From IMG/VR virus record IMGVR_UViG_3300032235_000379, positions 1 to 25,834 of that record: 25,834 nucleotides of DNA; one strand, 5' to 3'. Under the pieces are notes generated by a model. It did no database searches and had not been told where the DNA came from. It saw only the letters and a list, made by a program, of their open reading frames with translations. The DNA comes from a virus. Of the stretch, positions 13,053 through 25,483 are shown piece after piece. Each line of letters starts with the position of its first letter. The first letter of the stretch is position 1. A program made the position numbers and the translations under genes.

Positions 13053-14483
13053 TTACACCGCATATGGGTTAATCCTCGGCCTGACTTCGTCTGCATAATC
13101 GTCGTCGGCGGGCGGGGGGTCGATGTTGATGAGTCCCATGTCACGCAGCAGACGTAGCGCCTGCGACGTGGTATCTATTAAATCATCCCTTTCGCTCTCT
13201 GGGAAGGAGCAGATCTGCGAAACTAGCCTTTCGGCCCAATCCCGAGGCTGACCACGCTTGAGTGTCGATTCAGGTATGTAAACCCGGCCACGCTCGATGA
13301 TGTTGGCGATCAGTGCCAAGCGCTGGGTCTTATCCGCCCGCCCCGGGTTGTACCCACGAACAGGCAGTCCCGACCGCTGCAGATCCTGAATCAGCGACAG
13401 GCCCGAGGCCTTCTCCTCGATGAGCACCTGATCCACCCGCTTGCCCGGGTCGCCGTAGATCGACTCGAACTCGTCGATCATTTTGCGCTTGAGGTCGGGG
13501 TAAATCATGAACTCTTCCCAGCAGTCGATGAGCATGACCGACATAGGCTTGTCTTCCGATGGCCGAAACACGCCCCAGACCGAGCATGCGGTCGGGTCAT
13601 TGATCGTCTTGTCGGTGTAGGCGGGGTCGTACGACTGTAAAACGTAGATGAACTCCGGGAACTCGCGATCGGCGGGCCAGAGCCGGAACCACTCGCGCTT
13701 TACGATACCGTAATCTTCCGGATCGATAAGCTCGGCGTATAGTTCCTGCCGCCCGAGACGCGTGCCCTCGTACTCGGAGATGATCTCGTCCCTGAAGGTC
13801 GGGGCCAAATTGCCGAAATTCTCGTGGGTGGTGCCGGTGGTCACCAACGTGCGGACATCTTCGACCAGCTTGCGGATGATCGGAATCGGCTTGGGCGTGG
13901 TGGTAACGCAGCCGCGTGGCTTTTGCCCGAGTCGCAGACCGAACATCAGGTTCGACCATACGGCGTCCGGGTTCTTGTACTTTGCTAACTCGTCGCACCA
14001 AAAGAGGTCGTGCTGCGGGCCTCGAAGAGCCTCCGGATCCACGTCGGAGTAAATGGTGGCGATCGCACCGTTAGGCCACTCGAGACGCCGCTTCGATGGT
14101 ACGAAATTCGGCTTCATCATCGGGTGCGAAATGGCAAGGATTCCGGATTCACCCTCGACCATAACATCCCGGGCGTCACCTGCATCCTCGGCGATCAGCG
14201 CAATACGACCGGCCAGACCATTTTCGACATGGTAGCGCACGAATTCGGCACCACAGCGTGTTTTACCCCAACCGCGACCGGCGAGGATCATCCAGACGGT
14301 CCACCAATCCTGCTCGATCGGCACCCGCTGGTTAGCTCTGGCCCATGTGTGCCAGTCGTAGAACAGTTCAAGCGCCTCGGCGTCGGTGAGTTCAGATACG
14401 AACTCGTCCATGTTCGAGGGGTCAACTATCGTCTGAACTTTCTGCTTTGGCTTTCGCTTTGAGACGTTCGGTGAGCCGATCAC
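13053..14483 (-). CDS. terL: Terminase large subunit (packaging ATPase and nuclease)
   Basis: 476 residues from a GTG at 14483 that has the RBS GAGGG five bases upstream; ATG at 14411 (24 codons later) is an alternative without RBS. Walker A is AGRGWGKT (Gly69 to Thr75), Walker B is LFWCDE (Asp164, Glu165), and the motif III-like VTTTPKP follows near 204. The C-terminal RNase H-type nuclease shows its first acid in YVLQSYDPAYTD, then LIEEKASGLSL, and a final Asp in DDLIDTTSQAL. The enzyme cuts concatemeric DNA and drives it through the portal. It overlaps the small subunit gene by 62 bases if the GTG is used. Confidence 0.93.
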   Translation of the reverse strand: MIGSPNVSKRKPKQKVQTIVDPSNMDEFVSELTDAEALELFYDWHTWARANQRVPIEQDWWTVWMILAGRGWGKTRCGAEFVRYHVENGLAGRIALIAEDAGDARDVMVEGESGILAISHPMMKPNFVPSKRRLEWPNGAIATIYSDVDPEALRGPQHDLFWCDELAKYKNPDAVWSNLMFGLRLGQKPRGCVTTTPKPIPIIRKLVEDVRTLVTTGTTHENFGNLAPTFRDEIISEYEGTRLGRQELYAELIDPEDYGIVKREWFRLWPADREFPEFIYVLQSYDPAYTDKTINDPTACSVWGVFRPSEDKPMSVMLIDCWEEFMIYPDLKRKMIDEFESIYGDPGKRVDQVLIEEKASGLSLIQDLQRSGLPVRGYNPGRADKTQRLALIANIIERGRVYIPESTLKRGQPRDWAERLVSQICSFPESERDDLIDTTSQALRLLRDMGLINIDPPPADDDYADEVRPRINPYAV

Positions 14484-15099
14484 GCAATCCCTCGATGTTT
14501 ACGTTGGTCTCAACCGAACCGGAGTGGTTCATGTTGATGTCCTGCTTGCGGAATTTTGCATCATACCCCATGAGGGTGAACTGCAAAAGCGTATCCGAGA
14601 ATTTCTTGACGGTTTCACCGGTCTTGAGACCTTGGTGCACCAGAGGCTCATCGTGGCCAATGGCTGCGCGTCGGTAGGCCTCCTCACGGAGAGATTCGAC
14701 CATTTCGGCCTGAACCGAATCGACGATCGCGCTAAATGTAGGATAGATTTCGCGCCACTTGATGACCGTCATGGCAGAGACACCCGCCTTGCGGTAACCA
14801 GCACTCAGCGAAAATCGCCTTTCGCCCTTGTCATTGGCACCCCGGTATTCCGACAAAATCTGGAGCATAAGCCATGCGCGGGTCTCTTCGCGCTGCTTAA
14901 GCAAGCCCTCGGCCCGGACAGTCGGGTCATTACAAGCCAGAGAATGCGGGAGAGTGGATGAGGAACCTTCGTCTAGCCGGGCACGACCAGCGATGATGTC
15001 GGATAACAGAGCTTGCAGGGTAGTCCCTGCTCGTTCCTCGTGAAATGCCACGGTTTCGGCACCCAACTCGTCGAATGTGATGAGTTCATATTTAGCCAT
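14422..15099 (-). CDS. terS: Terminase small subunit
   Basis: 225 residues. A helix-turn-helix region lies around 85-125 (FSLSAGYRKAGVSAMTVIKW), followed by helix VDSVQAEMVESLREEAYRRA, and the C-terminal block HQGLKTGETVKKFSDTLLQF with LMGYDAKFRKQDI. This order, with the 'D.LL.f.L.g..p..yr' pattern, is typical of small terminase subunits that recognise the packaging site and recruit the large subunit. It is the first gene of the late operon, next to the repeat-rich intergenic region that could hold its binding site. The ATG at 15099 has no Shine-Dalgarno and lies where a transcript from the promoter at 15107-15136 would begin, so it may be translated leaderless. Confidence 0.87.
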   Translation of the reverse strand: MAKYELITFDELGAETVAFHEERAGTTLQALLSDIIAGRARLDEGSSSTLPHSLACNDPTVRAEGLLKQREETRAWLMLQILSEYRGANDKGERRFSLSAGYRKAGVSAMTVIKWREIYPTFSAIVDSVQAEMVESLREEAYRRAAIGHDEPLVHQGLKTGETVKKFSDTLLQFTLMGYDAKFRKQDINMNHSGSVETNVNIEGLRDRLTERLKAKAKAESSDDS

Positions 15100-15106
15100 G
15101 GAGCGA

Positions 15107-15136
15107 ATTAAACCACCGCACTTCGGATATTGTCAA
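15107..15136 (-). promoter_or_regulatory. Promoter of the terminase / late operon
   Basis: Minus strand TTGACA (15131-15136), 18 bp, TTTAAT (15107-15112). The transcript should start near 15100, at or one or two bases from the terS ATG at 15099, and no ribosome binding site exists in between. Confidence 0.65.
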
Positions 15137-15183
15137 TTATCTAATAACACCGATAATCTCCGTATCCACCTGCTGGAACAATC

Positions 15184-15231
15184 ATTCACGTCGTTTATAA
15201 TGCTGCGGTGCAACAATTCACGTCGTTTATA
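15184..15231. repeat. 16-bp direct repeat, two copies 32 bp apart
   Basis: ATTCACGTCGTTTATA occurs at 15184-15199 and 15216-15231. The repeat distance of 32 bp is about three helical turns, so a protein could bind both on the same DNA face. The copies lie about 85-130 bp upstream of the predicted late start point, a possible activator position. Confidence 0.75.
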
Positions 15232-15296
15232 GACCTTAACACTTTGATAACGATTTTGTATCCGTTGTATCCGTATTATCAGTTTACTAACGGATA

Positions 15297-15319
15297 CAAA
15301 AAGTTAGTGACCACTAACT
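15297..15319 (-). terminator. Rho-independent terminator of the early genes
   Basis: Minus strand AGTTAGTG-GT-CACTAACT (15302-15319), which would form at least a 6-bp stem with a 6-base loop, is followed by TTTTTG. It lies downstream of the VRR-NUC gene and upstream of terminase. The T run is part of one CGGATACA repeat copy. Confidence 0.7.
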
Positions 15320-15405
15320 CCGAGCGCGAATTCCCACGCGGGTGCGGAAGAACCCAGAATTCTTTGTATCCGTTGTATATACCGTTCTGTCGTCTAGCGA
15401 TATTT

Positions 15406-15425
15406 CTGTCGCAGCCTTGCGACAG
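15406..15425. repeat. Perfect 8-bp hairpin
   Basis: CTGTCGCA (15406-15413) and TGCGACAG (15418-15425) are exact complements around a 4-base loop. No T run follows on either strand, so it is not an obvious terminator. It may be a protein site or a structured RNA element within the repeat region. Confidence 0.55.
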
Positions 15426-15488
15426 GACAATACCCCCATGCGCGTGTGTAACAGCGGATACAGATCGCCTTCTTTTCGACTGGGAGAG

Positions 15489-15512
15489 GGTGTTCCATGA
15501 GGTGTTCCATGA
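15489..15512. repeat. 12-bp tandem duplication
   Basis: GGTGTTCCATGA occurs twice in direct tandem (15489-15500 and 15501-15512), close to the outer inverted iteron pair. Function unknown. Confidence 0.6.
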
Positions 15513-15614
15513 GGGGGTTCTGAACCGGATACAACGGATACAGACCCTGTTGAAGCTTTGCTGCGCCGCACCTAGACCTACGATACGGACTCCCCGGGCG
15601 GGAGTGATTGCATT

Positions 15615-16049
15615 CTACCTCGCTCTCAGCAGCGCGTCAATGATGTCCAGATCATTCGCCTTTTGCAGATCTACCACTATCGCCGACGTCCTGAATTCCG
15701 TCACGTTCAGCCCTTCGAACAGCGCCAGCGACTGGCGGGCCGAGAACACGTAGGCTATCCCTTTGCATTCCACCACGATCCAGGATCGGGTGCCGAAGTC
15801 CCGGTGGGTCCAGTGCCAGTTCGCTTGCCATGGCGTGTAGTGCGGCACCTTCACCGTGGTCTTGGCCAGCTTCGGGAATTCGGGCAGCGATTTGAGTTCG
15901 AGCCACCCATGTAGCTGTGCCGAAATGCCGAAGTAGACATCCGGCATCCCCTGCAGTATTTTGTTCTCTACTCGGTCAGCCCTCCAGCGACCCTTCATGA
16001 TCGCGCTCAGCCTGTCCCACAACACTTGTTCCGGTTTTCTCATACCCAC
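15615..16049 (-). CDS. VRR-NUC-type PD-(D/E)XK nuclease
   Basis: 144 residues, GTG start at 16049 with RBS AAGGAG eight bases upstream; an ATG two codons in is the alternative. The sequence fits the small VRR-NUC or resolvase-like nuclease fold: an acidic residue in RVENKILQ (Glu28), then GMPDVYF (Asp37), GWLELKS (Glu51, Lys53), and a PWQANWHWTHR helix with the conserved Gln, followed by strands SWIVVECKG and IAYVFSA. Such phage enzymes cut branched DNA or resolve junctions before packaging. It is the last gene before the early terminator and lies next to the repeat region. The exact substrate cannot be read from the sequence. Confidence 0.8.
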   Translation of the reverse strand: MGMRKPEQVLWDRLSAIMKGRWRADRVENKILQGMPDVYFGISAQLHGWLELKSLPEFPKLAKTTVKVPHYTPWQANWHWTHRDFGTRSWIVVECKGIAYVFSARQSLALFEGLNVTEFRTSAIVVDLQKANDLDIIDALLRAR

Positions 16050-16095
16050 GGGAGCCTCTCCTTGGTACTTCCACGGCCTTCGAACATTAGGGTAG

Positions 16096-16410
16096 CTATA
16101 TTAGTAGCTCATGTGCATCCAGAAGCGCTTCTCGGGCCTTCTCTTCGGTCTCGCCATACCTGCTTGGCGTCTGCTGACCCTTGTACGGACTGTAAAACGC
16201 GGCCAGAAACCCGCGTGGCGTGCCAGAGTCATCGGCGACCGGGTCCACCTGAATGTACAGCCCCGAGGTGTCGTCCAGCGCTCCACACCATGGGCATTCG
16301 GTCAGCGACCCATCCGATGCCGACGGGTCCCCCACCCGGGGGATGTCGCCGTCGTAATCGATCACTCCGCACGCGTTGCATTTCGAGAATTCAGAGTCAG
16401 TCATGGTCAT
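16096..16410 (-). CDS. Zinc-ribbon-like small protein
   Basis: 104 residues, or 102 if the second ATG at 16404, better spaced from the AGG upstream, is used. The N-terminal half has two CxxC groups, KCNACG (residues 11-14) and ECPWCG (39-42), a normal zinc ribbon spacing, with acidic residues between. The C-terminal half carries IQVDPVADDSGTPRGFLAAFY and a helix EEKAREALLDAHELL like those of small phage proteins that process amino acid or base analogue residues poorly characterised. Function unknown. The first ATG overlaps the stop of the upstream gene (ATGA). Confidence 0.7.
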   Translation of the reverse strand: MTMTDSEFSKCNACGVIDYDGDIPRVGDPSASDGSLTECPWCGALDDTSGLYIQVDPVADDSGTPRGFLAAFYSPYKGQQTPSRYGETEEKAREALLDAHELLI

Positions 16411-16674: not shown

Positions 16675-16950
16675 TTAGATGCTGAAAAAGCCCTTTTGGG
16701 CGAACCATCCGAGGTAGGTACCTGTTCTGGATTTTGCACTCCATGCCGACAGGTTAAATACCACGGTCCAGCGGTTATTCGATGGCAGCTGCACGACCAT
16801 GTAGTCCATGCCGACGTTGGTGTTGTTCCACTGCTCGAATTTCGCAGCCAGTTCCTCTGCCTTGGCCATCGCGGTCTTGTATGCGCCGTATGTCTTGACA
16901 CCGGCTTTGTTCTCGGTCAGGCGCTCTTCAATGCGTTCGATGATGTTCAT
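16675..16950 (-). CDS. Small hypothetical protein, first gene after promoter P1
   Basis: 91 residues: an N-terminal charged helix (about 1-42, MNIIERIEERLTENKAG and AMAKAEELAAKFEQW), then a beta part (YMVVQLPSNNRWTVVFNLSA) ending in GTYLGWFAQKGFFSI. It stands directly behind promoter P1 and a duplicated hairpin leader, with RBS GAGG before ATG at 16950. Such placement suggests strong early expression. Similar small proteins with a final aromatic strand occur in other phages without known role. Confidence 0.7.
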   Translation of the reverse strand: MNIIERIEERLTENKAGVKTYGAYKTAMAKAEELAAKFEQWNNTNVGMDYMVVQLPSNNRWTVVFNLSAWSAKSRTGTYLGWFAQKGFFSI

Positions 16951-16962
16951 GGTATCCTCTAT

Positions 16963-17004
16963 CGTCTATCCGGTGAAATCCACCGTCTATCCGGTGAAAT
17001 CCAC
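16963..17004. repeat. Tandem 21-bp repeat in the P1 leader, each copy a hairpin
   Basis: Two exact 21-bp units lie at 16963-16983 and 16984-17004, followed by three bases of a third. On the minus strand each contains CGGTG-GATTT-CACCG or its equivalent, a 5-bp hairpin; the promoter-proximal one is at 16992-17006. The leader of P1 thus carries two identical hairpins in a row, where the other leaders have one. Confidence 0.85.
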
Positions 17005-17014
17005 CGTGAGACAA

Positions 17015-17043
17015 ATTATACCACCCGTGGCATAGGCTGTCAA
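17015..17043 (-). promoter_or_regulatory. Early promoter P1
   Basis: Minus strand TTGACA (17038-17043), 17 bp, TATAAT (17015-17020), both perfect. Upstream is AAATAC, as in P3 and P4. The -35 box contains the TGA stop of the upstream small membrane protein gene. It drives the genes from 16950 leftward. Confidence 0.9.
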
Positions 17044-17159
17044 GTATTTTTCGAATGCCAGCGCCAGAAGACCGCAAGCATTAATAAGATGATAACGCCG
17101 GTCACGATCAGGCCTCCGGCCAAGGCCAAGGTGAGCACGGTAGTCAGATGCACGCTCAT
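17040..17159 (-). CDS. Very small single-span membrane protein
   Basis: 39 residues: MSVHLTTVLTLALAGGLIVT followed by GVIILLMLAVFWRWHSKNT. About residues 5-31 form one hydrophobic segment and the end is short and positive, so an outside-N, inside-C topology is likely. Its ATG at 17159 overlaps the stop of the upstream gene (ATGA) and a GAGAGG RBS lies seven bases upstream, which makes it credible despite its size. Its stop lies inside the -35 box of P1. It could act on the host membrane, for instance in superinfection exclusion or as a holin-like peptide, but nothing proves this. Confidence 0.65.
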   Translation of the reverse strand: MSVHLTTVLTLALAGGLIVTGVIILLMLAVFWRWHSKNT

Positions 17160-17378: not shown

Positions 17379-17636
17379 CTATTGACGTTGGGCGGGGATT
17401 CGCTCGAGGATCGCGGCGGCAATACGGGTCAGATCCATTTCGTCGGCCCACTCGGACACCATCCGGGCGCACGCTTCACGCTCCATAACCACCGCCGTCT
17501 TGGACGCTTCGATCGCCATCGCCATGATTTCGGCTTTGGCGATCACCAGCGCCTCGTCGAATTCCTTCTGCGTAAATAGTGTGGACTGGGTACCCTTGGC
17601 GAGGAACGCTTTTTGGAAGTCCGACATTTCGCTCAT
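17379..17636 (-). CDS. Small helical phage protein
   Basis: 85 residues, nearly all helical. The part ASKTAVVMEREACARMVSEW resembles the common phage motif of the type 'a...EReaCA...' with one conserved Cys, found in many small early proteins of unknown role. The ATG at 17636 overlaps the stop of the winged-helix gene and has an AGGAG site nine bases upstream. Function unknown. Confidence 0.7.
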   Translation of the reverse strand: MSEMSDFQKAFLAKGTQSTLFTQKEFDEALVIAKAEIMAMAIEASKTAVVMEREACARMVSEWADEMDLTRIAAAILERIPAQRQ

Positions 17637-18079
17637 CCGAATATCTCCTGTAGTCTTGCGTAGATCCTGCGAGCCTCGCCGATCGGCAGCGCATCGACGT
17701 CAATCTGGCCGAGGATGGGTACCGGCGCGGGTTTAGGCTCCTCGTATTTTACCACAGCGACCGGTGCGGGATCGATTTTGACGTTTGCTACCGATTTAGG
17801 TAGCGGCAGCAGCTCGTACTCGGACAGGGCGACCGCATACTCGAGCAGCGATTTACGGCCAGACCCCCGATAAGGGCGGTGCAGGACTGGTTTCGACTTG
17901 ATCATACCGCGCGTAGTCATGTCGCGCAGTTCCGTCTGGATCCACTCGACTCGCTCATTCAGCGCGGTCGCGATTTCGCGTGACGTCTTGTTCGGATGGT
18001 CGCGCAGCCAGTTGAAGATCCGGCGCTTGATCGGTACTTTGATGCCTACGTCATTCAATGCTTTTTTGATGATGTTCAT
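17633..18079 (-). CDS. Winged-helix DNA-binding protein, putative regulator
   Basis: 148 residues. About residues 15-62 read as a winged helix-turn-helix: RRIFNWLRDHPNKTSREIAT, ALNERVEWIQTELRDMTTRG, MIKSKP, with a wing in HRPYRGSGRKSLLEYAV. The middle is Pro, Val and Lys rich (EPKPAPVPILG) and the C-terminal helix ALPIGEARRIYARLQEIFG may serve contacts. This makes it the best candidate in the window for a transcriptional regulator, for instance of the repeated promoters. It has a good GAGAGG RBS and overlaps genes on both sides by four bases. The regulatory target is unknown. Confidence 0.75.
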   Translation of the reverse strand: MNIIKKALNDVGIKVPIKRRIFNWLRDHPNKTSREIATALNERVEWIQTELRDMTTRGMIKSKPVLHRPYRGSGRKSLLEYAVALSEYELLPLPKSVANVKIDPAPVAVVKYEEPKPAPVPILGQIDVDALPIGEARRIYARLQEIFG

Positions 18080-18327
18080 GCATTCCTCTCTCTAAGTTTC
18101 GCTTGCAGCAGGTCGGCGAATTCGCTCGGCTTCTTAGTCACACTCCACAGGGCTTTTACCTCTGCTGTGGTCAGATCCTTCCATTCATCTTTAAACCGTG
18201 GCGCTTGGTAGCTACACTTAGGGCAGATGTACCATTGTTGGTGTTCGGTGTTGGCTTTTATCCACTTTTCTATGGTCGATTCCATTTCTGAAATGTTCCC
18301 TTGCGGGTAAATGTGGTCATCGGTCAT
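18076..18327 (-). CDS. Small hypothetical protein with one CxxC
   Basis: 83 residues from ATG at 18327, which overlaps the upstream stop (ATGA). It has a helix EMESTIEKWIKANTEHQQWY, then YICPKCSYQAPRFKDEW with a single CxxC (half of a ribbon), and a helical end (PSEFADLLQAKLRER). Metal binding would require dimer formation or other ligands. No family recognised. It belongs to the small-gene chain. Confidence 0.65.
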   Translation of the reverse strand: MTDDHIYPQGNISEMESTIEKWIKANTEHQQWYICPKCSYQAPRFKDEWKDLTTAEVKALWSVTKKPSEFADLLQAKLRERNA

Positions 18328-18518
18328 TTTATTCGATCGTAGTAGATGTATGGGCCTTTGGCGGCTGACTTGTAGATGCTCTCGCTCTTGCGATCGAGGC
18401 AGCACTTGCAGATCCATCGCCGACTCTTGGTGGTCTCTCGAGTCACGCCGCCTTCGATCAGACGCACCGCCTGACACGACGTGCAGAATCTCATTTTTTC
18501 CGGGTCAGAAAGGCCCAT
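18324..18518 (-). CDS. Small zinc-finger protein
   Basis: 64 residues. The core is FCTSCQAVRLIEGGVTRE and RRWICKCCLDRKSESIYK, giving a CxxC pair and a CxCC group about 22 residues later, as in small treble-clef or HNH-like zinc fingers without the catalytic His. The start at 18518 has a very good RBS (AGGAG, eight bases). It may bind DNA or RNA. A later Met (residue 9) is an unlikely start. Function unknown. Confidence 0.7.
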   Translation of the reverse strand: MGLSDPEKMRFCTSCQAVRLIEGGVTRETTKSRRWICKCCLDRKSESIYKSAAKGPYIYYDRIK

Positions 18519-21438: not shown

Positions 21439-21571
21439 GAGTCTTCTCTCTAGTAGTGAATCGGAATTGGCACTTCGGTGATTTGCACTCGCGCCGACGG
21501 CGTACGGTGTTATCGGCGTTGTTGTAAGTCATCAGTACATGAGTGGGCTTGCCGCATTTAATACATTTCAT
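21410..21571 (-). CDS. NrdR-like zinc-ribbon mini-protein
   Basis: 53 residues: MKCIKCGKPTHVLMTYNNAD, then NTVRRRRECKSPKCQFRFTT and a polar end. Cys3, Cys6, Cys29 and Cys34 form a zinc ribbon. The VRRRRxC...RFTT stretch is that of the N-terminal DNA-binding ribbon of NrdR, the repressor of ribonucleotide reductase genes. The second cysteine pair is CxxxxC instead of the usual CxxC, and the ATP-cone domain of NrdR is absent. The ATG at 21571 shares four bases with the datZ stop (ATGA). A role in reading NrdR boxes or in dNTP control is attractive but inferred; short ribbons of this kind also occur in other phages. Confidence 0.75.
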   Translation of the reverse strand: MKCIKCGKPTHVLMTYNNADNTVRRRRECKSPKCQFRFTTREKTHDGHQKDAK

Positions 21572-22104
21572 AGGCCCATCTCCTTTCGAACCTCGAACAT
21601 CCCTGACCGAATGTTCAGGTCGAGATGCTCCTTCTCGTATTTATCGATCATGTCGTACATGGTGTCGTACAGACCGGTGAGCACTTCCTTGGCATGGATG
21701 CCCACACCGTGATCTTTTAAGAACCAGATCGCTTCCAGGATATCCGCGAATTTCACGATTACGCCGTATACGGTGCCTTCCGCACGACGACACATTCCAC
21801 CATACTCCTTCAGGAACTGCTCTTCAGCGGCAAGCATCTTCGCACCATTCGCCTCGAGTGCACGCTTGAATGGGGTCGGGATGTCGCCGGTATAGATCTC
21901 GACAATGTCGTGCATCAAAGCCCAAGACATCAGATCCAGTTGATCCGAGTGATGAAACCGCCCGTTCCATCCGATCGCCGCCGCGATGCGAACTGCAATG
22001 CCCGCGACGTTGAACGAGTGTTCAGCGATCGTCTGGGTGCGCGACGTATTCACTATCGTCCACCGCTTGGTGTACGACGCACGCAGCCATTCACTCGCTT
22101 TCAT
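21568..22104 (-). CDS. datZ: DatZ, HD-domain dATP triphosphohydrolase
   Basis: 178 residues from ATG at 22104, which overlaps the mazZ stop (ATGA) and has GAGG at good distance; an in-frame start at 22143 is less likely. The HD fold residues are His29 (TIAEHSFNVAG), His65-Asp66 with Glu69 (ALMHDIVEIYTGDIPTP) and Asp121 (VIVKFADILEA). This is the YfbR-type HD family, and the start region SYTKRWTIVNTSRTQTIAEH matches phage DatZ proteins. DatZ of Z-genome phages strips the triphosphate from dATP so that no adenine reaches the polymerase. Position next to mazZ and purZ makes this reading much more likely than a general 5'-nucleotidase. Confidence 0.87.
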   Translation of the reverse strand: MKASEWLRASYTKRWTIVNTSRTQTIAEHSFNVAGIAVRIAAAIGWNGRFHHSDQLDLMSWALMHDIVEIYTGDIPTPFKRALEANGAKMLAAEEQFLKEYGGMCRRAEGTVYGVIVKFADILEAIWFLKDHGVGIHAKEVLTGLYDTMYDMIDKYEKEHLDLNIRSGMFEVRKEMGL

Positions 22105-22595
22105 ACATGCCTCATGATTCGCGTGTTCGGATCCACTCGCCATGTTCGCTGCTCGTTGATGTCCATCTTGTCATTCACCGCTTTCTGTATGTCGATGTCA
22201 TTCATGCGTGCGACATCCAGCAGCAGGATCATAATGTCCCCGAATTCAGGAGCACTCTTAGGGTCGCGTGCGTACTCTCCAAGCTCCTCATATAATTTAA
22301 GCAGGATATCGGCAGTAGTCCGATTGGGAAAGTTCTGATCAGCCCAATCGACGATACGATCCTGCAATTGCTTGATGTCGGCACCAACTCTTTTATGATA
22401 GGCCGAAACGGCACGTAGTACAAAATCGGCATTGATATCACACGATCCGGTGACACCCTTATAGAGGTCACGCGTCTCGAAATCTGCAACCGGTAGCCCG
22501 TTGGCGTCCAAGAGTAGCGCGGGATTGCCTTCACTCTTCCTCCACGGTAGTGGGTTCATCTCGTCGGTATAACCGAGCGCTTCAAAAATCGGCAT
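22101..22595 (-). CDS. mazZ: MazZ-like MazG-fold dGTP pyrophosphohydrolase with N-terminal extra domain
   Basis: 164 residues from ATG at 22595, chosen because AGGGAGA lies just upstream; the open frame goes on to 22652 without RBS. The C-terminal half is a MazG-type helical domain: LYEELGEYAR (Glu103, Glu104, Glu107), EFGDIMILL (Glu117, Asp120), and KMDINEQRTW with Lys143, Asn147 and Arg150, the usual metal and substrate sites. The N-terminal 75 residues (NPLPWRKSEGNPALLLDANG, NADFVLRAVSAYHK) match a separate phage domain of unknown role. In Z phages MazZ converts dGTP to dGMP, the PurZ substrate. It overlaps purZ by 14 bases. Confidence 0.83.
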   Translation of the reverse strand: MPIFEALGYTDEMNPLPWRKSEGNPALLLDANGLPVADFETRDLYKGVTGSCDINADFVLRAVSAYHKRVGADIKQLQDRIVDWADQNFPNRTTADILLKLYEELGEYARDPKSAPEFGDIMILLLDVARMNDIDIQKAVNDKMDINEQRTWRVDPNTRIMRHV

Positions 22596-23604
22596 ATTCA
22601 ATCTCCCTAATGTCTGCATCATCCGGCCCGAAGCACAGGTAATCTGGTCCAAAGTTCGATAAATTCATCTGACGGATGATGTTGGTCAGCGTATCCTCGC
22701 CACAGTAATCCGCGAATGTGAGTACGACTTTCGTCGAGAGTCCCGCACAGTGTAGCATCGCGTGCTTGTACTGCGCGTCCGAGAATTCGAAGATGCGACG
22801 CGGCAGCTTGGTCACTGTAGTCAGTTCAGGCTCTAGTCCCAGATCGCCCCAAGATATCTCTTTCTGCCCGGGGTATGCAGGTCCAGACGTACCATCACGA
22901 TTATTCACTCGGATCGGGAACGTGCGTACGACCATCCACACCGTGATCGCTGCCGCCCATGTGAACGGTAATCCGCAATCCGCCGCGATCTGCCACGGTG
23001 TTACGTCACGCGATGTACAATATGGCCAATCACCATGGTACATTGACAGGCCGAACCCCTGTGCACCTTCGACCAGCAGATGGCGCGACTCGTTCAGGAT
23101 GCGGTCGTATTCGAACCGATCGACCACGAACTGCTCGAGCGGATGACCCTTGAAACCCAACCGGGCGACGGCTTTCGAATCCGGGTCACGCATGATGCGA
23201 TCCACCATCGCAGCCCCCACGCCTTTGGTGGTCGAGCCGATTTTGGTCATGCCGAGTGATTTCTCACGCTCAGAATGCTCATCCGTCACCACCGCTGCGT
23301 GTTCGTGGATCACCAACCGCTGGCCCTCGACCATGTATTTGTCGATCTCTCGTTGCAGGGTACCCGCGTGAATGAGCGATCCCGGGCCGAGCATGACCGT
23401 GTTCACCGACGGGCCAGACACTCCGACCGGCAGCTGCTGCACCATCATCTTCAGACCCCGGGCGCGGTCATTATACGTGTGACCCGCTTGCGTGCCATAT
23501 GAACACACCACGGTGTCGTATGCATACCGTTTCGCGAGCCAGCCGGACACGCCGCCTTTGCCACACGATCCCCACATGCCATCCATAGTCATATCGATTC
23601 TCAT
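22582..23604 (-). CDS. purZ: PurZ, phage adenylosuccinate synthetase-like enzyme for 2-aminoadenine
   Basis: 340 residues, about 90 shorter than bacterial PurA. The first loop is WGSCGKGG: Ser13 stands where PurA has catalytic Asp13. The catalytic His is kept (His42 in QAGHT), and GSTTKGVGAAMVDR (123-136), VEGAQGF (178-184) and YCTSRDVTPWQIAADCG (195-211) follow PurA regions. The guanine-binding TKLD motif reads TKLP (265-268), so GTP specificity is probably lost. PurZ joins aspartate to dGMP; host PurB then gives dZMP, which host kinases turn into dZTP. The RBS GAGGAG fits ATG at 23604. The gene has its own possible promoter. Confidence 0.94.
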   Translation of the reverse strand: MRIDMTMDGMWGSCGKGGVSGWLAKRYAYDTVVCSYGTQAGHTYNDRARGLKMMVQQLPVGVSGPSVNTVMLGPGSLIHAGTLQREIDKYMVEGQRLVIHEHAAVVTDEHSEREKSLGMTKIGSTTKGVGAAMVDRIMRDPDSKAVARLGFKGHPLEQFVVDRFEYDRILNESRHLLVEGAQGFGLSMYHGDWPYCTSRDVTPWQIAADCGLPFTWAAAITVWMVVRTFPIRVNNRDGTSGPAYPGQKEISWGDLGLEPELTTVTKLPRRIFEFSDAQYKHAMLHCAGLSTKVVLTFADYCGEDTLTNIIRQMNLSNFGPDYLCFGPDDADIREIEYADF

Positions 23605-23662: not shown

Positions 23663-25483
23663 TCACCCTTTCGCCTCGTACCAGTTACCGCCGATACCCC
23701 AGTCGCAGGTGATCGGCACCCTGAACTTCATCTCGCAATCGACGCCATCGAACGTGGTGTAGATCTTGGCGATCGCGTCGGGATTCGCGTCCTTCTCGAG
23801 CGATATACCGACTTCGTCGTGCACGGTCAGCAGCAATCGTCCCGCATCACGCTCGGTCAGATATCGGTCGATCTCAATGAGCTTCACCTTCATCGCGTCA
23901 GCGCTGGTGCCTTGGTAAATCAGACCCGACGCCTTGTGCGTGAACTGCCCGCCCGGGAACCGGATGTGACGGCCCATCATGGTCATCACGTGACCCCGCT
24001 GCCGAGCGATCGCCGACGCCTTTTGCTGCATATTGCGCATTCCAGGATTCGCCGCGTGGTACTTCTCGAAGATCGCAAGCGCCTCGGGGCCGGGTTTGAC
24101 AAACACTCGCCCATCGTCCATCGTCTCCTCGGCACAAGGTAGCCCGATCTCTTGCGCGAGACGCCCGGCACCCATGTTGAATGCAAGACCCAGATTGATC
24201 GCTTTCGATGACGGCCCACCCGCATACTGCGCGTTCCGGGGAATGCCGGTCATATCGGATACTAGCTGGTGGAAGTCGAGGTTCGGGTTGTCGTGGTACG
24301 CCTTGATGATGGCCGGTACTTGGCCGTAATGGTTAGCCACGCGAAACTCGAACTGCGACCAATCCATTCCAAGCCATCTTGCGCCCTCATCTGGAAGGAA
24401 AATAGGACGTACCAAGGACTTGATCTCTTGGTCACGACTAGGGATCTGCTGGAGCGCTGGATTGGTAACTGAGAGTCTGCCGGTACCAGTTCCGGCCTCC
24501 GCATCATTTTTCGTCTGGTTATAGTTACAGTGAATGACGCCTTCATTGTGATGTCCTAAGATGTGGCCGGATAAGAATGTATCGCGGGTTTTCAGCATTT
24601 TGCGCAGGTCGAGTATCATCTTCGCCGCCGGGTGCTTCATGCGGCGCAGACAGTCTGCGTTTATCGATGCCTTACCCCCATCAGTCTTATCCGCCTTCGT
24701 GCCGTCATTCAAATACCATTCACCATCCGATCCTAACTTCGGCTCGAATAGCTTCGTGATCGATCCGGAAGGGTTCGGGTTGACCTCGAATCCCGCGAGG
24801 GTATTCAAGGCCCGGTGGTCCTGCTCGATGCGAACGGAGAGCCTCTCGACCGCCTCCTCGGCCCGATCGACGTCCACCCGCACGCCGCCCTCTTCCATCC
24901 GAATTATAACAGGCATGAGCCTCCGCTCCAGATCGTGCACCTTGGCGATCTCGGTCATGCGGGGTTCCTGCCACTGGAACAGCTTCATCGTCGCCAGTGC
25001 ATCCTGCTTCGCATATTTTGCCACCATTTCTGCCGGTGCGCGGTGGATATTGGGCATTTGGGCGTTCCGAGTGGCCCTACCACCGAACAACCCGGCCATC
25101 TCCTCGTATATCTCGGTCTCCTTGCGGGTGTTGGCGTACTTGCGAGCCAAGAAGTCGAGTTCATAGGTGGGTTCATGCTCGTTGATCAGCGCCGCCCGGA
25201 TCATGGTGCAGTCGATTCGATCCTCAGGCAGGATGACCCCCGCCTCGCGCAGAAAATGGTAATCGAACTTCAGATTATGTCCGACCCACTTCGTGCGCGG
25301 ATTCGCATCGATCAGGTCATTTAACCAGTCGATAAATCGAGGATCCGTTCGAACATCGAAATACCATGTATCTTCGGTCTCCGTACACAGCGAGACCCCG
25401 AAAATGCGGTCTTTCCACCACTTTAAACCAGTGGTCTCCGTATCGATCACCAACACCTTCGGATTCTCTATGCGCGGATACAT
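23663..25483 (-). CDS. dpoZ: Family A DNA polymerase with 3'-5' exonuclease, DpoZ type
   Basis: 606 residues. The proofreading domain has Exo I VIDTETTG (Asp14, Glu16), Exo II HNLKFDYHF (Asp73) and Exo III YAKQD (Tyr156, Asp160). The polymerase domain has TGTGRLS (330-337), motif A MDWSQFEFR (Asp373, Glu378), motif B SSKAINLGLAFNMG (Lys426), QGTSADAMK (523-531) and motif C VHDE (His554-Glu556). There is no 5'-3' exonuclease domain. In the O helix of motif B, positions matching E. coli Pol I Arg754 and Phe762 appear as Gly422 and Leu430. In phages with PurZ, a polymerase of this kind (DpoZ) prefers dZTP over dATP; the location next to purZ supports that. No RBS is visible; it starts five bases after the upstream stop. 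Confidence 0.9.
   Translation of the reverse strand: MYPRIENPKVLVIDTETTGLKWWKDRIFGVSLCTETEDTWYFDVRTDPRFIDWLNDLIDANPRTKWVGHNLKFDYHFLREAGVILPEDRIDCTMIRAALINEHEPTYELDFLARKYANTRKETEIYEEMAGLFGGRATRNAQMPNIHRAPAEMVAKYAKQDALATMKLFQWQEPRMTEIAKVHDLERRLMPVIIRMEEGGVRVDVDRAEEAVERLSVRIEQDHRALNTLAGFEVNPNPSGSITKLFEPKLGSDGEWYLNDGTKADKTDGGKASINADCLRRMKHPAAKMILDLRKMLKTRDTFLSGHILGHHNEGVIHCNYNQTKNDAEAGTGTGRLSVTNPALQQIPSRDQEIKSLVRPIFLPDEGARWLGMDWSQFEFRVANHYGQVPAIIKAYHDNPNLDFHQLVSDMTGIPRNAQYAGGPSSKAINLGLAFNMGAGRLAQEIGLPCAEETMDDGRVFVKPGPEALAIFEKYHAANPGMRNMQQKASAIARQRGHVMTMMGRHIRFPGGQFTHKASGLIYQGTSADAMKVKLIEIDRYLTERDAGRLLLTVHDEVGISLEKDANPDAIAKIYTTFDGVDCEMKFRVPITCDWGIGGNWYEAKG

Follow-up and report, generated by a model that had tools for sequence, protein, structure and literature searches.

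A 25,834-b viral fragment (the window; record G000) carries a dense array of the octamer CGGATACA upstream of its small terminase gene (terS). Relatives carry a second array of matching units upstream of an archaeo-eukaryotic-type (AEP) primase. We give an even chance to the reading that array 1 is one of two sites that form the replication origin of a lytic Z-base phage, a function that we infer.

Array 1 in the window

Exact copies of CGGATACA, counted on either strand, number eight in the window. Seven lie within 15257-15542 (286 bp), at 15257 (-), 15266 (-), 15291 (+), 15365 (-), 15455 (+), 15526 (+), and 15535 (+), and the eighth lies outside the array at 25475 (+). The 17-nt arms at the borders, 15257-15273 and 15526-15542, are 100% complementary and separated by 252 nt. 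Each holds a doubled unit with a 9-bp step. Simulating the window 100 times with a first-order Markov model gave a top count of 4 for any octamer per 300 bp, compared with 7 observed, which rules out a chance origin. The array is real. Exact counts and simulations thus confirm an earlier note that described seven octamers in 286 bp, two of them doubled at 9 bp as exact 17-bp inverted borders. The same note had named a search of the rest of the genome as a check, and in the rest of the window only the copy at 25475 was found. The array occupies a 515-bp gap between terS (start 15099) and the next same-strand gene (end 15615). Its parts are as follows.

15257..15542, no strand: array 1, seven exact CGGATACA with embedded palindromes (exact counts, simulations, alignment with relatives)
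15257..15273, minus: doubled octamer with a 9-bp step, forming the left arm of the 17-bp inverted pair
15291..15298, plus: octamer opposing the left pair, within a 13-bp inverted repeat (15254-15266 / 15289-15301)
15302..15319, no strand: AGTTAGTG-AC-CACTAACT dyad, partly common to relatives (sequence, alignment)
15365..15372, minus: octamer; a doubled unit in relatives, with the second unit degenerate in the window (alignment)
15406..15425, no strand: CTGTCGCAGCCTTGCGACAG near-palindrome, with CTGTCGCAAGCTTGCGACAG as its counterpart in G001 array 2
15455..15462, plus: octamer
15489..15512, no strand: 12-bp direct repeat that contains TGTTCCA twice (= TGGAACA, the unit that predominates in sister lineages)
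15526..15542, plus: doubled octamer with a 9-bp step, forming the right arm of the 17-bp inverted pair

Megablast of the window against 50,697 phage records returned no match. Blastn of the array gave a best E of ~3 among phages and no match among plasmids. Between terS and the array (15179-15231), the 21-bp sequence CAAxxATTCACGTCGTTTATA stands twice in direct orientation, with the copies 32 bp apart, and the pair also occurs in G001.

Neighboring genes

The genes and promoter that frame array 1, and those of the Z-base set, are as follows.

14422..15099, minus: terS, downstream of array 1 (PHROGs phrog_4044, E 2e-18)
15107..15136, minus: sigma70-like promoter TTGACA-18-TTTAAT, ~8 nt ahead of the terS ATG
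15615..16049, minus: phrog_2165 gene, last gene of the replication-side module (PHROGs)
21568-22143: datZ-like gene (HD hydrolase)
22101-22652: dATP/dGTP pyrophosphohydrolase
22582..23604, minus: purZ
23663-25483: family A DNA polymerase

The window also encodes terL, portal, a DUF6378 protein, and SSB. By its gene content it is a fragment of a Z-base phage with a full Z-base gene set, and Z in the DNA itself is predicted from these genes. The earlier note placed terS and a VRR-NUC nuclease beside the array. The first assignment is supported. For the second, the sole PHROGs match of that gene is phrog_2165, labeled "DNA helicase," and no Pfam family matched it. A putative PD-(D/E)xK-like motif in this gene is our own reading of the sequence. 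If the TTGACA-18-TTTAAT promoter is used, terS may be leaderless.

A second array in relatives

An exact 17-mer scan of IMG/VR returned 23 stretches. Carriers G006, G014, G015, G016, G018, G021, and G022 were left out as fragments or possible chance matches. Whole-record searches found two CGGATACA clusters in each of four purZ-positive records.

G001: 32374-32754 and 51049-51329
G004: 15923-16155 and 48619-48876
G005: 16887-17119 and 49291-49548
G017: 1130-1410 and 18102-18377

Array 1 is upstream of terS, as in the window, and array 2 is upstream of the AEP primase. In G001, array 2 lies between a lytic/tail gene and the primase (phrog_21866, E 3e-120; Pfam AEP-TOTE and PriCT_1). After the primase come genes for an SNF2-like and a UvrD-like helicase, along with genes resembling Pam3 gp32-34. 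The two arrays bracket the replication/Z (nucleotide) module and are 17-23 kb apart (distances from 10 records). The second array of the window phage would lie outside the record.

A primase alignment scan found 286 loci, of which 79 were kept and 78 assessed (L160 was too short). Stepped tandem pairs occur upstream of the primase in all 48 loci whose primases are at least 66% identical, with a mean of 5.17 compared with 0.49 in 1,241 control windows. Among remote primase loci, 19 of 30 have at least one stepped pair, against a background of 39%. The remote genomes G042, G038, and G039 have a second, small cluster built of the primase-side unit, and no array was found at either place in the remote G050, G055, and G051. 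The earlier note suggested that Z-containing DNA may need a special initiation site, and the arrays were indeed found in phages with Z genes. Several PurZ-positive records with related primases, however, have no array at the place examined, upstream of the primase, which counts against an origin. A search for a prophage or host link gave 64 pattern-matching stretches in genome contigs, none encoding a relative.

The primase also identified 24 records of annotated isolates, including known Z phages. Four were examined: PMBT28, SH-Ab 15497, Kokobel2, and K21lambda1. Arrays are upstream of the primase and again towards terS, with units TGGAACG, AGCAACC, and TGGAACC. PMBT28, reported to be virulent, pac-type, and circularly assembled, has its array 1 about 2 kb upstream of terS.

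These data bear on two proposals of the earlier note. The ordered, iteron-like array as a possible origin is supported by the second matching array and by family-wide conservation. At array 2, clustered, phased repeats adjoin a replication gene, as at iteron origins, and the AEP primase itself may be the initiator. The terminase recognition (pac) site, bound by TerS, found no support. In the window clade, array 1 lies a short way upstream of terS, and the related PMBT28 is reported to be pac-type, but a pac site is expected to be single and at or near terS. We consider this reading very unlikely because an equal array with the same units stands 17-23 kb away, upstream of the primase; the 2-kb distance from terS in PMBT28 also counts against it.

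Unit turnover and pairing

Both arrays were compared in 22 genomes (12 of the 25 records of one set, six earlier records, and 4 of the 24 annotated phages). Every genome has the same unit type in both arrays, counting mixed arrays, in which TGGAACA occurs with TGGAACG or, in G003, with CGGAACA. Two distant sites with the same repeats, the SPP1-type arrangement, are therefore present in 22/22, and the window record itself covers only array 1. Arrays span 120-450 bp, with 5-10 units plus extra palindromes. The unit varies by lineage (CGGATACA, TGGAACA, TGTAACA, TGGAACG, TGGAACC, or AGCAACC); array placement and 8-12 bp steps are kept across lineages. G002 and G003 (PurZ about 45% identical) lack the CGGATACA array and have TGGAACA-type units at the same two places.

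Unit counts are available for 47 primase loci. In G025, TGTAACA has 9 and 8 copies in the two arrays and 2 elsewhere. CGGATAC in G004 has 10 and 9 copies in the arrays and 4 elsewhere, and AGCAACC in SH-Ab has 7 and 5 in the arrays and 6 elsewhere. By local alignment, the two array copies are inverted in 19/22 genomes and direct in three (PMBT28, K21lambda1, and Kokobel2). Copies of array 1 and array 2 keep type-specific stretches in alignment, which would argue against simple gene conversion between them. A TGTCG..CGACA palindrome was rejected as a universal part, since it occurs in only 13/22 array-1 and 9/22 array-2 regions (background 14%).

Because units agree at sites 17-23 kb apart and switch between lineages, they point to one trans-acting, sequence-specific phage factor. 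The matching units would be best explained by a single phage protein that reads both arrays. The lineage switches form a natural specificity series for finding it.

PurZ is 72-89% identical among the CGGATACA phages (G001, G004, G005, G017, and the window). It is only 40-45% identical to that of TGGAACA/TGTAACA phages, despite primases about 70% identical, and purZ may have been exchanged on its own between lineages.

Origin, operator, or structured element

As half of a two-site origin, array 1 would act as follows. A phage protein would bind the octamers as tandem sites with 8-12 bp steps, both in the array before the AEP primase operon and in the one before the late (terS) operon. Once bound on the primase side, it would recruit the primase and helicases and start circle-to-circle replication. 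At the terS-side array, the same bound protein would provide a second origin or a fork block. As has been proposed for SPP1 oriL/oriR, such a block could help replication switch to the concatemers used in headful packaging. Origin activity and the theta-to-sigma role are both inferred. GC skew has no sign change at the arrays in 10 records, which counts against an origin, and was dropped as origin evidence. No consistent AT-rich unwinding element was found in 14 genomes, where the AT maximum fell anywhere between the 5th and 100th percentiles of background.

The main and serious rival, which we judge possible but less probable than an origin, is a pair of operator or enhancer arrays; the earlier note had also proposed a regulator's array. 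A phage regulator would occupy the same sites before the primase and terS promoters and couple early and late transcription. Operators commonly have short tandem and inverted sites, and both arrays are upstream of sigma70-like promoters, as operators would be. In most of the 22 genomes, the stretch from array 2 to the primase holds a sigma70-like or extended -10 element. TTGACA-17/18-TTTAAT precedes terS in the window and also in G009 and G017 (spacing 17), and PMBT28 array 1, despite its distance from terS, still precedes TTGACA-N17-TATAAT. However, lytic phages do not usually have one unit at both early and late promoters, and the size of the arrays, their number of units, and their extra palindromes also count against operators. 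So does their orientation: in 19/22 genomes the two arrays face opposite ways with respect to the operon that follows each. No regulator gene was found in common among the genomes compared. A 148-aa protein of the window (17633-18079) weakly matches a MarR-type regulator (phrog_1687, E 2.6e-6); as a universal regulator it was rejected, with no counterpart among the matches listed from G001.

A structured RNA or single-strand element is improbable. Transcripts or displaced strands would fold through the inverted units, for example into priming hairpins of the RSF1010 ssiA/ssiB kind or into an element of RNA control. Folding against shuffles gave a mean z of -5.44 in 44 arrays, 36 of them below -3, compared with -0.49 in controls (n=28); the window array has a z of -4.37. 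The fold similarity of the primase AEP domain to RSF1010 RepB' also favors priming hairpins. Inverted protein sites alone, however, would yield the same fold signal, and many units are direct tandem copies that need no pairing partner. CTGTCGCAAGCTTGCGACAG, moreover, is a dyad with no loop, as dimer sites typically are. No RNA family in Rfam matched the window, which counts against a known RNA and against an RNA element.

Candidate reader protein

Returning to the origin, G001 and G044 ORFs (queries of at least 60 aa) were compared across 17 records to list shared proteins. The widely shared DNA-related proteins are the primase, SNF2-like helicase, gp32-34, UvrD-like helicase, polymerase, and SSB. 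No dedicated regulator common to all carriers was seen in this comparison. G044 has no gene replaced relative to G001 that would point to the binder, and the G043 and G044 contigs have no purZ match.

The leading candidate is perhaps the predicted winged helix at the primase C-terminus. In the primase model, the AEP domain matches CAPP PrimPol (Z 23.5, rmsd 2.4, 198 aligned). The C-terminal half, modeled alone, has pLDDT 86.8 and pTM 0.60. Its weak fold matches are SaPIbov1 Rep 45-142 (Z 6.5, rmsd 2.6, 79 aligned), the pCW3 oriT-binding protein (Z 6.5, rmsd 4.2, 93 aligned), SCCmec Cch 436-555 (Z 5.8, rmsd 3.9, 92 aligned), an ORC subunit (Z 5.6, rmsd 4.3, 92 aligned), and PadR regulators (Z at most 6.5). 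All these Z-scores are below 8 and may reflect just a common arrangement. Foldseek found no match to the C-terminus at E of 0.001 or less.

Five primase alignment columns separate CGGATACA phages from all others, and three of them (490-492, G001 numbering) are in the predicted wing loop. Null groupings did equally well in 12/815 cases for the primase, 19/815 for gp32, and 64/815 for the helicase. Because 12/815 null groupings match it, the covariation is a lead only and a weak pointer to the binder. Loci L095-L098 have primases 83-84% identical to that of G001, but their units are mostly TGGAACA, which counts against this reading.

For the Z-base siphophages of this group, we tentatively propose a two-site origin with the unit switching in step at both sites and the primase winged helix as reader. 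We regard this fuller scheme as rather doubtful. If true, replication compatibility groups would follow unit type, and an origin would for the first time have been described in a phage group with DNA predicted to lack adenine.

Comparison with known systems

No description of Z-genome phage replication origins or of such arrays was found in open-licence literature on diaminopurine/PurZ phages. PMC8342488 discusses origins only in general terms, and the words repeat, primase, intergenic, and iteron are absent from the main text of PMC12884076. The paired arrays with changing units give a concrete place to look for Z-phage origins, and phages for testing include isolates.

The closest arrangement is that of SPP1, a virulent headful siphophage. 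In SPP1, gp38 binds repeats at two noncontiguous sites, oriL and oriR, which are 12-13 kb apart on the circularized genome and share one initiator; stalling at oriR is proposed to start concatemer formation. SPP1 differs in its AT-rich unwinding elements and in gp38/gp39/gp40. The phages described here have an AEP primase, helicases of the SNF2-like and UvrD-like kinds, and a Z-phage polymerase; they show no constant AT-rich element, and their units turn over between lineages. No gp38/gp39/gp40-like initiator, loader, or DnaB helicase was found among two sets of 10 G001 proteins scanned, which gave AEP primase, SNF2, and UvrD families instead.

Phage P4 replication needs two cis regions, and the P4 alpha primase is fused to a helicase. 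The primase here has no helicase domain, and the arrays, unlike those of P4, are 17-23 kb apart. The likeness is that short repeats at P4 ori/crr are bound by a winged-helix domain of the primase protein alpha, which carries a Toprim-type primase (PMC4234260).

Origins of PICIs always have two iteron sets, according to PMC6092414. PICI and SCCmec Rep-ori systems are thus similar in having two repeat sets, and the phage primase C-terminus weakly resembles their SaPIbov1 Rep and Cch domains. The PICI sets flank an AT-rich region at one site, whereas the phage sets enclose a large module.

RSF1010 ssiA/ssiB with RepB' also combine an AEP-type primase with two sites. The two RSF1010 priming sites have opposite orientation and are together in oriV. 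Those of the phages are distant and, in 3/22 genomes, direct.

Other repeats in relatives

The start of the G001 contig, a contig end (L052:1-450), has a dense repeat with ACTACCGGAAC and 11 copies of TACCGGAA in 400 bp. In the remote Z phage G038, 22 CACTGCA copies are found in 300 bp downstream of purZ (L184:4800-5200).
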